Assembly: GCA_013289045.1 (NCBI GenBank)
Contig: JABDAU010000010.1
Coordinates: forward strand, 1 to 64,000
From: Bacteroidota bacterium
GTDB lineage: Bacteria; Bacteroidota; Bacteroidia; Sphingobacteriales; Sphingobacteriaceae
Direction of reading: 5' to 3'
Length of the DNA stretch: 64,000 nt
Shown here piece after piece: positions 5,128-56,258 of this stretch (its first letter is position 1; every line of letters starts with the position of its first letter). Made by a program: the position numbers and the translations under genes. Under the pieces are notes generated by a model. That model was not told the DNA's origin. It did no database searches and worked only from the letters and a program-made list of their open reading frames with translations.

Positions 5128-6123
5128 ATGAAACTCTTTAGAAAAGGTTACCTGAAACGCTGGTGGAAAATTATAATGGCCACATTTATGGGCTTTATCA
5201 ATGATAACGGCCTTAAGCTAAGCGCCTCACTGGCCTATTATACCATATTTTCTATCGCGCCGCTATTAGTATTGATCCTGGCGCTCATCAGCGTATTTTT
5301 AAAGGACCCCATTCATCGGGACATGATATATACACAGCTGCAGCATTACATGGGGATGCAGGCAAGCAACCAGGTAAAAGATCTTATCACCCACCAGGCG
5401 GTATACAGTAAAAGCGGTGTGGCGCTTGTTGTGGGCAGTATCATTTTGTTATTAGGCGCAAGCAGTATGTTTGTGGAGATACAGGATTCGCTCAATATCA
5501 TCTGGCGCGTGCGGGCAAAACCTAAAAAAAGCTGGCTAAAATTGATCCAGAACCGGTTCTTGTCGTTCTCGCTCATCGCCAGTCTTGGATTTTTACTGCT
5601 GGTATCGCTGGTGATCAATATTTTGGTAAGCGCTTTAAGTAACAGAATACAGCATTTCTTCCCTGGCATTGGTGTAATTATTTTCCTGGTGAATTTGGGC
5701 CTTACCTTTTTGGTTATTGCGGTGTTGTTTGCTATCATATTCAAAGTATTACCGGATGTAAAGATCACCTGGAAGGATGTCCGCTCAGGGGCTGTATTTA
5801 CGGCTATACTATTTATACTGGGGCAATACCTGATCGGCCTGTACCTGCAATATTTCGGCAACAGCTCCACCTATGGCGCAGCGGGGTCGTTAATTGTGAT
5901 ACTAACGTGGATCTATTATACTGCCGCCATATTATATATTGGCGCCGAATTTACGCAGGTATATGCAGAGGCCATCGGCAGTAAAATTGAGCCGGCGGAA
6001 TACGCGGTACACATCAGGCAAAGCGAAGTGGAAGTGGAAGTGAAAAAATTACCGCCGCAAAACCCTGAAATTTCCGGCGAGCTGAAGCCGGAAAATTTGC
6101 CGCCTGAAGAAAAAAAAGCATGA
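5128..6123 (+). CDS. YihY/BrkB family inner membrane protein
   Basis: Several TM segments; NDNGLKLSASLAYYTIFSIAPLLVLIL, STYGAAGSLIVILTWIYYTAAILYIGAEFTQVYA. Confidence 0.9.
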   Translation: MKLFRKGYLKRWWKIIMATFMGFINDNGLKLSASLAYYTIFSIAPLLVLILALISVFLKDPIHRDMIYTQLQHYMGMQASNQVKDLITHQAVYSKSGVALVVGSIILLLGASSMFVEIQDSLNIIWRVRAKPKKSWLKLIQNRFLSFSLIASLGFLLLVSLVINILVSALSNRIQHFFPGIGVIIFLVNLGLTFLVIAVLFAIIFKVLPDVKITWKDVRSGAVFTAILFILGQYLIGLYLQYFGNSSTYGAAGSLIVILTWIYYTAAILYIGAEFTQVYAEAIGSKIEPAEYAVHIRQSEVEVEVKKLPPQNPEISGELKPENLPPEEKKA

Positions 6124-6157
6124 TAATTTTTTGCGACCTATCAATCGGTTATCACGA

Positions 6158-6228
6158 AATGTTCCGATGGAACATAATAGCATGTTAGCAATTTTTTCTA
6201 CCCACGAATTGTTCCTACGGAACAAAAT
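6158..6228. repeat. Outlying copies of the same motif, one in reverse orientation (ttttttctacccacgaattgttcctacggaaca)
   Basis: Reverse complement of the array core is directly visible at about 6193-6224. Confidence 0.75.
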
Positions 6229-6276
6229 CATTTCCATTATTTAGGAATGTTGGGTAGATATTAGCAATGCTTCATC

Positions 6277-7017
6277 AATACAATTGGCGGGTAGAAATGA
6301 ATATATAAGCGACACGCGGTCACCTTTCGTAGCGAAGCCACCTTGTCCTATGGAACAATTGGTGGGTAGAAAAATGAATATATAAGCGACACGCGGTCAC
6401 CTTTCGTAGCGAAGCCACCTTGTTCCTATGGAACAATTGGTGGGTAGAAAAATGAATATATAAGCGATGCGCGAATTACCTTTCGTAATTAAGCTGCCTT
6501 GTCCTTAGGAACAATTTGTAGGTAAAAAAAAGAATATAAGCGATACACGAATTATTCTTCGTAATGAATCTACCTTGTTCCTTAGGAACAATTCGTGGGT
6601 AGAAAAAAAAATAAAAGCGATATGGAATCACCTTTCGTAATGAATCTACCATGTTCCGTAGGAACAATTCGTGGGTAGAAAAAAAATAAAAGCGATATGG
6701 AATCACCTTTCGTAATGAATCTACCATGTTCCGTAGGAACAATTCGTGGGTAGAAAAAAAATAAAAGCGATACACGAATCACCTTATATAATGAATCTAC
6801 CTTGTTCCTTAGGAACAATTCGTGGGTAGAAAAAAAATAAAAGCGATATGGAATCACCTTTCGTAATGAATCTACCATGTTCCGTAGGAACAATTTGTGG
6901 GTAGAAAAAAAATAAAAGCGATACGGAATCACCTTATATAATGAATCTACCATGTTCCGTAGGAACAATTCGTGGGTAGAAAAATGAATCATATAGGCGT
7001 TATGTTCCGTAGGAACA
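6277..7017. repeat. Degenerate tandem array, about 9-10 units with period about 75-79 bp
   Basis: TGTT(C)CNNNGGAACA recurs at about 6344, 6421, 6500, 6576, 6652, 6727, 6803, 6878 and 6953, each followed by aatt(c/t)gtgggtagaaaaa. A shorter terminal copy starts at about 7003. Confidence 0.95.
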
Positions 7018-7057
7018 TTTCGTGAAATGTACGCCTACCCTTTATGCTCGCCTTCCC

Positions 7058-8389
7058 CTAATAATTATCATGTATAAACGTAATAATTTTCACCATTTCG
7101 TTGCGCACCTGTCGCGGTGGTTCGGTAAAGTTGTTGTTCATGAACGAGAAGGCCAGCCGTTTGCCTTTGCGGGTGATAAGGTAGCCGCTTTGATTATAAT
7201 CATACATCAGTGAACCGGTCTTGGCCCAAACAAAAACCTGCCCGTTATCAGTTTTATAAGCGCTTTTAATAGTTCCGGCTACACCGCCTTGCGGCAGCTC
7301 GCTGTGTAATAATTGTTCATCTTTCGTTTGCAGTATTTTTACCAACAATGCAACTATACTCCGCGGCGTAAACATATTATACCGCGAAAGCCCCGAGCCA
7401 TCCACCCATCTCGGCGTATCCGGAAGATCGTTCAGGTAATGCGTTTTGGAATAATTGATCACCGAATCGGTACTCAATACACCAAATTTAACTGACGAGC
7501 ACACCAGCAGCAATTGTTCCGCAATAAAATTATCGCTCGGCTGCAGCAGGTGCCGGTAAACAGTATCGGCATTGGTATTATAGATGGTTTTGGCATCAGC
7601 GCCCATCTTCCGGCGGATAACGCGTACGGGTTGCCTCAGCGTATCCTGCAATAGGTCACGGATTACATCGGCGCTCACCTTCCAGGGTATCTGCTGCGAA
7701 TAATTCTTTGGCGCGGTCATGGCGGGGTACGAAAACGAGTTGGACAGAAAATCCCGCTTTATATAAAAATGCTCCGGTTTAAAATCGCCCATGTATTCAA
7801 AATCCTGCACAAAATAATTTGGCCGGATATCAAAATGTCCTAAAGAATCTGTCGTAAATAAAACCGTATTGTTTTCAACCGGCAGCTCGCTTATCTCCGC
7901 CTGGTAATCATCGTTATAATCATTCCATGCCCAGCCATCGCCAAAAAAATCTCCCTGGTAATTGCCCGAGGCATAAAAAAGCTGCTTGCAGCTGTTCTTC
8001 AAAAAATTAAAAGCATTAACACCTTTCAGGTCGCGGTGTAGGAATGACGGATCGCCCGTGCCCCAAAAAATGAGCGAATCGCCGTGCATTTCGTAACGAA
8101 TGCCGGGTATCGAGTCGCCCAGCATCCGCAGGCAGGTATACCAGGTAAAAAGTTTGGTATTTGATGCCGGGGTGTAATATTTATCATCGTTCAACTCATA
8201 GATCATTTTTTTATTACCCAGGTCGTACAGCGCAAACCCGGTAAAATGATCGTTCAGTAGCTTAGAATGTTTGAAGAGTTTCTTTATTTTATGCTTGCGG
8301 ATCCCCCCGGCATATGCATGTTGTACCCCCTGGAAAAGGAATACCGTAAATAATATAGTGTAAATTATGCGGCGGGCTGTAACTATCAT
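7058..8389 (-). CDS. D-alanyl-D-alanine carboxypeptidase/endopeptidase, PBP4 (DacB) family
   Basis: PASNTKLFTWYTCL (SxxK), SDNFIAEQLLL (SxN), DGSGLSRYNMFTP, VWAKTGSL (KTG). Confidence 0.92.
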   Translation of the reverse strand: MIVTARRIIYTILFTVFLFQGVQHAYAGGIRKHKIKKLFKHSKLLNDHFTGFALYDLGNKKMIYELNDDKYYTPASNTKLFTWYTCLRMLGDSIPGIRYEMHGDSLIFWGTGDPSFLHRDLKGVNAFNFLKNSCKQLFYASGNYQGDFFGDGWAWNDYNDDYQAEISELPVENNTVLFTTDSLGHFDIRPNYFVQDFEYMGDFKPEHFYIKRDFLSNSFSYPAMTAPKNYSQQIPWKVSADVIRDLLQDTLRQPVRVIRRKMGADAKTIYNTNADTVYRHLLQPSDNFIAEQLLLVCSSVKFGVLSTDSVINYSKTHYLNDLPDTPRWVDGSGLSRYNMFTPRSIVALLVKILQTKDEQLLHSELPQGGVAGTIKSAYKTDNGQVFVWAKTGSLMYDYNQSGYLITRKGKRLAFSFMNNNFTEPPRQVRNEMVKIITFIHDNY

Positions 8390-10174: not shown

Positions 10175-10939
10175 ATGATGAAACTTAAACTCTCGCTGTT
10201 AATTGTATTACTATGTGCAATCACGATAAGTGCCTGCAGAAAAGATAAAACGCCCGGCCCAGCCGGCGATAATGGTTCAACCGGCGCCACGGGTTCAACC
10301 GGCTCAACCGGAGATACAGGCCCGCAAGGCGCTACCGGCCCAACAGGCCCTTCAGGTGGCCCGACCGGTGCAACTGGCGCTACAGGAGCCACTGGTGCAA
10401 CCGGAGCTACGGGAAATAACGGAACAAATGGTTCTACCGGCGCTACAGGAAATAACGGAACCAATGGTTCTACCGGTGCAACGGGAAATAATGGTACAAA
10501 TGGTTCTACCGGTGCAACGGGTGCAACAGGCACAGCTGGTTCAACGGGCGCTACAGGCGCAACCGGAGCAGCAGGCCCTGGTGCAGCAAGTTATCTCATC
10601 ACCGACAAGGATATTTCATTGGTGGGTACACGGCTTAACGTGCCGGCCATCACTGCAGATATTGTTAACGAAGGCGTAGTACTGGTTTACTTCAGGCCAA
10701 CCGGAACCACAGGCGTATATTACGCTTTGCCTTACAGTGAGGCAGGCGCTACCATCACTGTTAAAGATATGGGCGTAGGTTATATCGAGATTTCCTCAAG
10801 CCAAAACGAAACCGGCCTTGATTTCAGGATCGTTGTAATAGCAGGCACTTCGCTTACAGACCTTTCAGCGCTTCATCCGAATATCAATTTTAATAACTAT
10901 AGCCAGGTAGCTTCATTGTTCCGCCTTGGTAAATTATAA
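10175..10939 (+). CDS. Collagen-like (Gly-X-Thr/Gly-X-Y) repeat lipoprotein
   Basis: Lipobox-like TISAC at the N-terminus; [28 protein letters not shown]...([12 protein letters not shown])n; globular C-terminal domain. Confidence 0.9.
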
Positions 10940-20247: not shown

Positions 20248-20353
20248 TTCCCTCCTCGGGGAGGGGTGCGGTAGGAACGTGTAGTGGCAGGGAGGGGTTA
20301 TGCGCTATTGCATGGCGACTAAACCCCTCCCTTCACCCTCCCCGTGGGAGGGA
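20248..20353. repeat. G/C-rich nested inverted repeat, variant of family A
   Basis: ttccctcctcggggaggggtg ... caccctccccgtgggagggaa, with inner gcagggaggggtt/aacccctccct. Confidence 0.8.
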
Positions 20354-20427
20354 ATCGCACTTTCCCTTGCTCTTTTAAATCTTTCGAACACTCAAGGTGC
20401 CTACCCCATAGCACGTTATATATTTAG

Positions 20428-54671: not shown

Positions 54672-56258
54672 ATGGTATTTAAAAGACCAGGAAACGGCCG
54701 GAACGAAAGATCGGGCAACTCCTCAAACCGGGGCAACAGCTCCAACAACGGGCCAAAAAGATCAACCTCTTCGAGAGGTAAATCAGAAAACAGTTCTGAC
54801 AGGCCGAACAAAAATCAATCAAGTTTTAGTGGCGAACGTACCGGCAGCAGGCGGCCATCATCGGCAGCGGGCAGCAAACCGTATTCGGGCAGACCGACCG
54901 GTAGCAGCGACGAACGCCCGGCCAGGAAAAGTTTTTCAAGGGGCCCTGCTAACGAAGGCGGAGAAAAGCGCCCATATTCATCACCACGCAGCAGGCCAGC
55001 CGGTGACGGCGAACGCCCGGTCAGGAAAAGTTTTTCAAAAGGCCCAGGTAGCGAAGGCGGCGAAAAACGCCCTTACTCGTCACCACGCAGCAAACCGTAT
55101 ACGGGCAGACCGACCAGTGGCGATGATCGCCCGGCCAGGAAAAGTTTTTCAAGAGGCCCGGGTAGTGAAGGCGGCGAAAAAAGACCATACTCACCACAGC
55201 GCAGCAGGCCTTATTCCGGCAGACATGCAGCTGACGAGAACAAACCAAAACGCGAATATAATAGCCGCGATGACCGTGAAGGCGGCGAAAACAGGCCAAA
55301 ACGTGAGTTTAGCAGCCCCCGCGGCGATCGTGAAGGCGGCGAACGAAAAACCGGTAATTCAAGGCCGGCAGGTTCGCGCACACCACGCCCTACCGGAGAC
55401 CGTAAGTTTACCGGCAAACGCGACGGCGATTATAAAGCAAAACCATTCCGCAAGGAAAGAGATACAAATTCTGAATTCCGCGAACGCCCGGAAGCGCCTG
55501 CAAAATCAATGCGCGGCCGTAAGGAAAAGGCTGGTAAAGATGATCACCTGATCCGTCTTAACCGTTACATCGCCAACGCAGGGATCTGCTCACGCCGTAA
55601 AGCTGATGAGCTGATAGAAGCAGGCGTAGTATCGGTAAATGGCAATGTAATATCAGAACTCGGCTTTAAAGTAGACCCAACCAAAGACGAGATCCGCTAC
55701 AATGGCGAACTATTGAAGCGCGAAAAAAATGTTTATGTGCTTTTAAACAAGCCAAAAGATTATATCACTACAACCGATGATCCGCAGGAGCGCCGCACAG
55801 TGATGCATTTGGTGGAAAAAGCCAGTCGTGAGCGGATCTACCCGATAGGTCGCCTTGACAGGAACACTACCGGATTACTATTAATGACCAACGACGGCGA
55901 CCTTGCCGAAAAATTATCGCACCCGCGCAGCAACGTTACCAAATTATACCAGGTTGAATTAAGCAAAAGCCTTACCCAGGGCGATTTGAACAAGATCTCT
56001 TTCGGCGTTGAGCTGGAAGATGGTTTGATAAAACCTGATGCGGTATCCTATGTACAAGGCGGCACCAAACGCGAAGTCGGCATACAGATCCATAGCGGCA
56101 AAAACCGCATCGTACGCCGTATTTTCGAACATCTTGGCTACGAAGTGGTAAAGCTTGACCGCGTAGTTTACGCCAACCTTACCAAAAAGGATCTGCCTCG
56201 CGGCAGGTGGCGTTACCTGGATGAGAAAGAAGTCATCCAGCTGAAGCATTTGATTTAA
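54672..56258 (+). CDS. rRNA pseudouridine synthase (RluB/RsuA-like, S4 domain) with about 280-aa repetitive disordered N-terminal arm
   Basis: LIRLNRYIANAGICSRRKADELIEAGVVSVNG (S4); YPIGRLDRNTTGLLLMTNDGDLAEKLSHPRS; NRIVRRIFEHLGYEVVKLDRV; N-terminal (RKSFSRGPGSEGGEKRPYSSPRS) repeats. Confidence 0.93.
   Translation: MVFKRPGNGRNERSGNSSNRGNSSNNGPKRSTSSRGKSENSSDRPNKNQSSFSGERTGSRRPSSAAGSKPYSGRPTGSSDERPARKSFSRGPANEGGEKRPYSSPRSRPAGDGERPVRKSFSKGPGSEGGEKRPYSSPRSKPYTGRPTSGDDRPARKSFSRGPGSEGGEKRPYSPQRSRPYSGRHAADENKPKREYNSRDDREGGENRPKREFSSPRGDREGGERKTGNSRPAGSRTPRPTGDRKFTGKRDGDYKAKPFRKERDTNSEFRERPEAPAKSMRGRKEKAGKDDHLIRLNRYIANAGICSRRKADELIEAGVVSVNGNVISELGFKVDPTKDEIRYNGELLKREKNVYVLLNKPKDYITTTDDPQERRTVMHLVEKASRERIYPIGRLDRNTTGLLLMTNDGDLAEKLSHPRSNVTKLYQVELSKSLTQGDLNKISFGVELEDGLIKPDAVSYVQGGTKREVGIQIHSGKNRIVRRIFEHLGYEVVKLDRVVYANLTKKDLPRGRWRYLDEKEVIQLKHLI

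Follow-up and report, generated by a model that had tools for sequence, protein, structure and literature searches.

A tandem hairpin array between brkB and PBP4 genes in a Bacteroidota genome is one arm of a REP-like four-hairpin module associated with Y1 transposases

Why is a gap between two convergent genes of a Sphingobacteriaceae genome filled with hairpins repeated head to tail, and where did they come from? The gap lies in the first part of the window (the whole 64,000-nucleotide stretch of DNA analysed here), and an earlier note, made from its letters alone, had described in it a tandem array of 9–10 units of about 76 bp. Here we set out the anatomy of the array, its relatives in other genomes and its association with a transposase. 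We favour, with a probability of roughly 0.7, a reading from sequence comparison in which it is a REP/REPIN-like non-autonomous element, moved in trans by a TnpA of subclass 1.2, that inserted between brkB and PBP4 and had one of its arms expanded in tandem.

The array and its neighbours

The array is bounded on the left by a gene for a brkB/YihY-family membrane protein (5128–6123, plus strand; TIGR00765, 99.3 bits against a cut-off of 73.15) and on the right by a convergent gene for a PBP4-like D-alanyl-D-alanine carboxypeptidase (7058–8389, minus strand; TIGR00666, E value 1.9e-25, below the curated cut-off), both outside the element; gene calls and profile matches agree with the placement given in the earlier note. 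TRF, run on the window, finds a period of 75 with 9.3 copies at 6280–6984, and this resolves into nine complete plus-strand units (6297–6981, 75–78 bp), each formed by one hairpin, TGTTCC-n3-GGAACA, and a tail, ATT(C/G/T)GTGGGTAGAA. Successive hairpin anchors are spaced by 78, 78, 77, 76, 75, 76, 75 and 75 bp, and the nine aligned units have a mean column identity of 87%. The palindrome is intact in seven units and lacks one stem T in the other two; all nine run on into ATT-N-GTGGGTAGAA or a near variant. The sequence TGTTCCNNNGGAACA occurs ten times in the window with at most one mismatch, against 0.14 expected. The tandem-hairpin feature is real and far above chance, and the array reported earlier stands.

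Directly 5′ of the hairpin, the window units (6297–6981) carry TCTACC, which is complementary to the GGTAGA of the tail and so gives each unit a longer interrupted stem; no such extension was seen in the other arrays read. Other repeats in the window include the collagen-type G-x-y (GATGATG) tandem repeats of a lipoprotein-like gene (10175–10939) and, at 54911–55224, a 99-bp and a 114-bp tandem repeat that overlap, each with about 1.9 copies and a unit length divisible by 3.

Regular 47–48-bp arrays in some relatives, and a 136-aa minus-strand ORF that crosses the window array, might suggest a CRISPR-like array or a coding tandem repeat. We give this reading almost no weight: what lies between the hairpins is itself repeated sequence, where a CRISPR array has unique spacers between identical repeats, inverted copies are present, no CRISPR family reaches its cut-off, and no reading frame survives unit lengths of 75, 76, 77 and 78.

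One arm of a four-hairpin module

The tandem units, copies of an inner hairpin, HPa, make up one arm of a larger, symmetric module, HPb′-HPa′-[HPa]n-HPb, that spans 6153–7024. On the left the module opens with the outer hairpin and its tag on the minus strand (HPb′, 6153–6175; CACGAAA-TGTTCC-gat-GGAACAT), a copy additional to those listed earlier, which is identified by its sequence, a palindrome match at 6160–6174 and a position and orientation as in dispersed modules. It is followed by the inverted inner hairpin with its tag (HPa′, 6195–6225, minus strand; TTTCTACCCACGAA-TTGTTCC-tac-GGAACAA), an exact minus-strand pattern match. Between this and the array, the sequence at 6230–6296 (plus strand), CATTTCC..GGAATG-TTGGGTAGA and then a hairpin-less tail ACAATTGGCGGGTAGAAA, reads as probably decayed HPa units. 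On the right, the outer hairpin closes the module on the plus strand (HPb, 7002–7024; ATGTTCC-gta-GGAACAT-TTCGTG; palindrome match 7003–7017) and fits the HPb consensus CGTTCC-n3-GGAACG-ttTgGTG, whose offset is fixed in 61 of 65 cases. The inverted copy at about 6193–6224, described earlier as an outlier, and the short terminal copy at about 7003 therefore exist as regular module parts, HPa′ and HPb.

The same grammar holds beyond the window. In 101 of 113 hairpins the distance from the stem to GGTAG on its 3′ side is a constant 7 nt; the 5′ side shows no conservation. The two kinds of hairpin keep their order (a+b+ 18 times against 3 for b+a+; b−a− 22 against 2 for a−b−), and inverted neighbours, leaving out pairs that enclose the transposase gene, are a−a+ in 16 cases and a+a− in none. 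Sharing of tags between HPa and HPb of the same locus is suggestive (seen in 13 of 46, where 4.9 would be expected; p = 2e-4 with loci counted as independent). The unexpanded form, HPb′-HPa′-HPa-HPb, is present in eight copies in the same genome, one of them without the centre, and in about a dozen in another (G285). Head-to-tail HPa arrays with periods of 46–55 or 69 occur at 10 of the 80 transposase loci considered below, which makes arm expansion a habit of the family; the window array has the longest unit of those compared.

Probable insertion between brkB and PBP4

The same convergent brkB–PBP4 pair was found in six relatives with a gap of about 125 bp or less that holds no palindromes, and in a seventh whose gap holds about 800 bp of unrelated sequence. 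From these element-free gaps, the element was probably inserted in the window lineage, loss in all other relatives being less likely.

The hairpins accompany a subclass 1.2 transposase

Genome G210 has, amid a cluster of the same hairpins, a gene for a 153-aa protein (Pfam Y1_Tnp, E value 5e-30) that scores 82.4 bits against the NCBIfam IS200/IS605 model NF033573 (cut-off 55); the homologue reaches 31.7 bits with the RAYT model NF047646, well short of its cut-off of 80. The genome of the window likewise carries a transposase gene beside hairpins, on contig C133, the sole full-length one in an assembly that is 63.5% complete. Its flanking hairpins belong to a related, non-identical subtype (CACCTGGTGGGTAG, against CAATTCGTGGGTAG in the window), and the protein, also of 153 aa, has the motifs DHIH, WQ and YIQNQEKHH. 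The Y...Q..HH motif is present in 71 of 80 homologues, and the transposase resembles the solved TnpA of IS608 and ISDra2. TnpA(Y1) of subclass 1.2 is described as having DH[IV]H, WQ and Y---Q--HH, a length of about 148 aa and hosts among the Bacteroidota or Cyanobacteria (PMC6006769); on motifs, length and host group, the transposase is assigned to this subclass.

The 80 homologues come from Bacteroidota and relatives (Mucilaginibacter, Pedobacter, Flavobacterium, Dyadobacter, Chitinophagales, Algoriphagus, Balneolaceae and others). Tagged hairpins lie within 700 bp of the transposase gene at 64 of these loci. The 109 kb near the gene hold 198 matches, against 9 for the 423 kb far from it and 0 for shuffled sequence. 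Among the 16 loci without matches, 10 are Flavobacterium-type or other homologues whose hairpins perhaps fall outside the motif used. At the level of the genus, GGTAG-tagged hairpins accompany the gene at 28 of 30 loci, in organisms partly shared with the larger set. Neither a class-2-type Y1 gene of the same genome (L088, motif YIHENP) nor a weaker Y1 match (L089) has GGTAG-tagged hairpins.

Repeat and transposase also occur together. GTTCCn3GGAAC-GGTAG is carried by all 17 genus genomes with a transposase at least 72% identical and by 15 of 133 others (150 genomes, Fisher p = 5e-14, counting genomes as independent of kinship); some of these matches are the ones beside the gene, so that this test and that of proximity are not fully independent. 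A narrower pattern, GTGGGTAGAAA, had found the repeat in 2 of 301 genomes, proved too strict and was replaced by the broader one. Many of the 15 genomes that carry the repeat without a close transposase have more distant ones, and more distant transposases go with other stems (TGCTCC, TGCCCC, GGCCCC) that retain the CC-n3-GG core and the GGTAG tag. Mapped on the transposase tree, stem type requires 21 changes, against a mean of 31.7 and a minimum of 26 when shuffled. Stem sequence thus follows the transposase tree: hairpin and transposase diversify together.

Pairing is conserved between copies, not within the array

The earlier note had proposed that the palindrome arms vary in a compensatory manner within the array, around a changing centre. 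The nine aligned units do not bear this out. None of the 17 proposed pairs (main hairpin, outer stem and mini-palindrome) shows a two-sided change, and 236 of 500 shuffles score as high for covariation; RNAalifold, left to find its own structure, reports a single two-sided pair, which belongs to another, weak stem. The varying centre is the unpaired loop, the mini-palindrome TTCG-TAG-CGAA, said to change in concert, changes on one side only, and other changes are one-sided or mismatching (ATGTTCC...GGAACAA is a mismatch and not a compensation).

Between copies the picture is different. We counted pairing in 139 hairpin instances from the 80 transposase loci, picked solely by CC-n3-GG and GGTAG. 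Stem positions 3–7 are Watson–Crick in 94, 94, 88, 78 and 59% of instances; when partners are shuffled, the figures are 50, 80, 71, 51 and 39%. T-A and C-G pairs predominate at position 3, and position 8 falls below expectation. The hairpin is a 7-bp stem, and its copies at different loci and in different species do show compensatory change. A hand-picked alignment also gives strong covariation but was chosen for diversity; we rely on the 139-instance count because it involves no selection on the outer pairs. The suggestion that structure, as opposed to coding, is under selection thus survives through comparison of copies, although not through the array itself.

A role for this structure in RNA, with the array kept as a terminator or 3′-end stabilizer of the convergent brkB and PBP4 transcripts, is improbable. 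It would suit the position between convergent gene ends and the strong folding of the array (z −8.4 with DNA parameters), but no terminator-like site, intrinsic terminators included, was found in 5900–7300, no Rfam family reaches its gathering score (all cmscan matches are sub-threshold; RAGATH-30 gives 20.8 bits against 59.5), the element is absent from the orthologous gaps of relatives and the repeats go with a transposase. The array may still serve secondarily as an mRNA end.

Still less probable is that the hairpins are binding sites of a nucleoid or regulatory protein of the host, the link to the transposase being one of hitchhiking. The palindrome is indeed short and strongly conserved, with sites away from the gene; yet the stems change in pairs and stay complementary as their sequence diverges, which points to a role of pairing, and within the genus the sites are rare and concentrated in transposase-bearing genomes. 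Most likely, the hairpin is read as single-stranded DNA by the Y1 transposase and not as RNA.

Dispersed modules and their outer repeats

An inventory built on pattern and BLAST searches lists 41 palindromes on 15 contigs of the window's own genome. The earlier proposal of expansion from a mobile single-copy element holds as to mobile origin, given these copies elsewhere; what expanded is one arm of a four-hairpin module and not a single-copy unit.

Eight modules of this genome (L045–L052, on contigs C11, C25, C29, C44, C79, C81, C101 and C112) lie inside a larger repeat, at least some 300 bp long and bounded by terminal inverted repeats of about 21 bp, GGTTTAAGTTAACCCATAAAAT...ATTTTATGGGTTAACTTAAACC; no transposase was identified for the GGTTTAAGTTAACCCATAAAAT ends in this genome. 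Several of these copies sit within C-/G-rich palindromes (CCCTCCC..GGGAGGG), which may be the target of the terminal-repeat elements. A palindrome of this kind, CCCTCCCC..GGGAGGG, also occurs in the window at 20341–20379, with no hairpin module there. In genome G285, about a dozen dispersed copies (L250–L261) of a repeat of about 235 bp enclose the module between different terminal repeats, GTAATAGCCCATCATAAGACAG...CTGTCTTATGATGGGCTATTAC, often within CCCCTCTTGAGAGGGG-like palindromes. A second, different mover may therefore be involved in these dispersed modules.

The shared outer repeats of the two genomes are what one would expect if the module were cargo of classical MITEs, spread by DDE-type transposases that act on the outer terminal inverted repeats, with the hairpins having no role in movement. 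We regard this as unlikely, if the strongest of the alternatives. Comparison by eye of the flanks of 6153–7024 showed no terminal inverted repeats, and each of the two genomes has terminal repeats of its own whereas the hairpin module is conserved. Nor would such transport explain why hairpins flank Y1 transposase genes and track their phylogeny. Since some dispersed copies do lie within MITEs that have their own terminal repeats, the mover is not proven.

A model for the window element

In the reading that we prefer, the enzyme would be the subclass 1.2 HUH/Y1 transposase, of IS200 type and specific for single strands, whose gene lies on another contig of the genome (C133). It would recognize the hairpins and their GGTAG and T(G/C)GTG tags where the DNA is transiently single-stranded, cut the module and move it in trans. 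The module would have landed in the short convergent brkB–PBP4 gap of the window lineage, where the HPa arm would then have been amplified head to tail to nine units by replication slippage, recombination or the transposase. The element is most likely a genomic parasite without host function.

More broadly, these elements may constitute a widespread REP-like class of the Bacteroidota, with a tag on the opposite side and a four-hairpin module, recognized and mobilized by IS200-type (subclass 1.2) TnpA; on present sequence evidence we put this wider claim at even odds. If it is true, systems of REPs and transposases arose a second time, independently of RAYTs, offering an independent case of a transposase becoming the maintainer of REP-like repeats. 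Earlier work presented the HUH transposases of subclass 1.2 as IS200 relatives that lack both IS properties and REPs, with no known substrate; the tagged hairpins, which stand beside most of the genes examined, are a candidate for that substrate and would account for a family of intergenic palindromes that lack annotation in Bacteroidota. We found no earlier description of these repeats in the open-access literature, and one elsewhere is possible.

Comparison with known systems

The closest comparison is with REP, REPIN and BIME sequences and their RAYT (TnpA-REP) transposases, such as the REPtron of E. coli and the REPINs of Pseudomonas (PMC2817692, PMC3116915, PMC6006769). In both, a single Y1 transposase gene has short tagged hairpins at its flanks and more are scattered over the genome, with inverted pairs whose tags point outwards, clusters, and stems specific to each transposase lineage. 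Here, however, GGTAG stands 7 nt 3′ of the stem (CTACC 5′ on the other strand) in place of GT[AG]G 0–2 nt 5′ of the hairpin. The motif of the transposase is Y...Q..HH, of class 1, and not Y...NP, and hairpins of two kinds form a four-hairpin module and head-to-tail arrays. The system appears to work like REP/REPIN but departs from RAYT-type REPs in two defining features, tag side and transposase class.

IS200/IS605 elements (IS608, ISDra2) share the HUH/Y1 transposase, as the NF033573 match reflects, and hairpins near both gene ends; they differ from the present system, in which each side of the gene has two hairpins, a genome holds few gene copies, divergent from one another, and there is a population of hairpin modules without a gene. 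Some dispersed copies resemble MITEs in forming short repeats with terminal inverted repeats, unlike the window element. The best fit on the side of the enzyme is TnpA(Y1) of subclass 1.2, with which the transposase shares DHIH, WQ, Y...Q..HH, a length of about 150 aa, Bacteroidota hosts and low copy number. That subclass was published with REP as 'no' and generally without terminal structures (Quentin et al. 2018, PMC6006769), whereas we find tagged hairpins at most loci (the 64 of 80 and 28 of 30 above); the program used there required GTAG or GTGG 0–2 nt 5′ of the hairpin and would presumably have missed elements without it. The elements described here are best filed as a REP-like system of subclass 1.2 TnpA.
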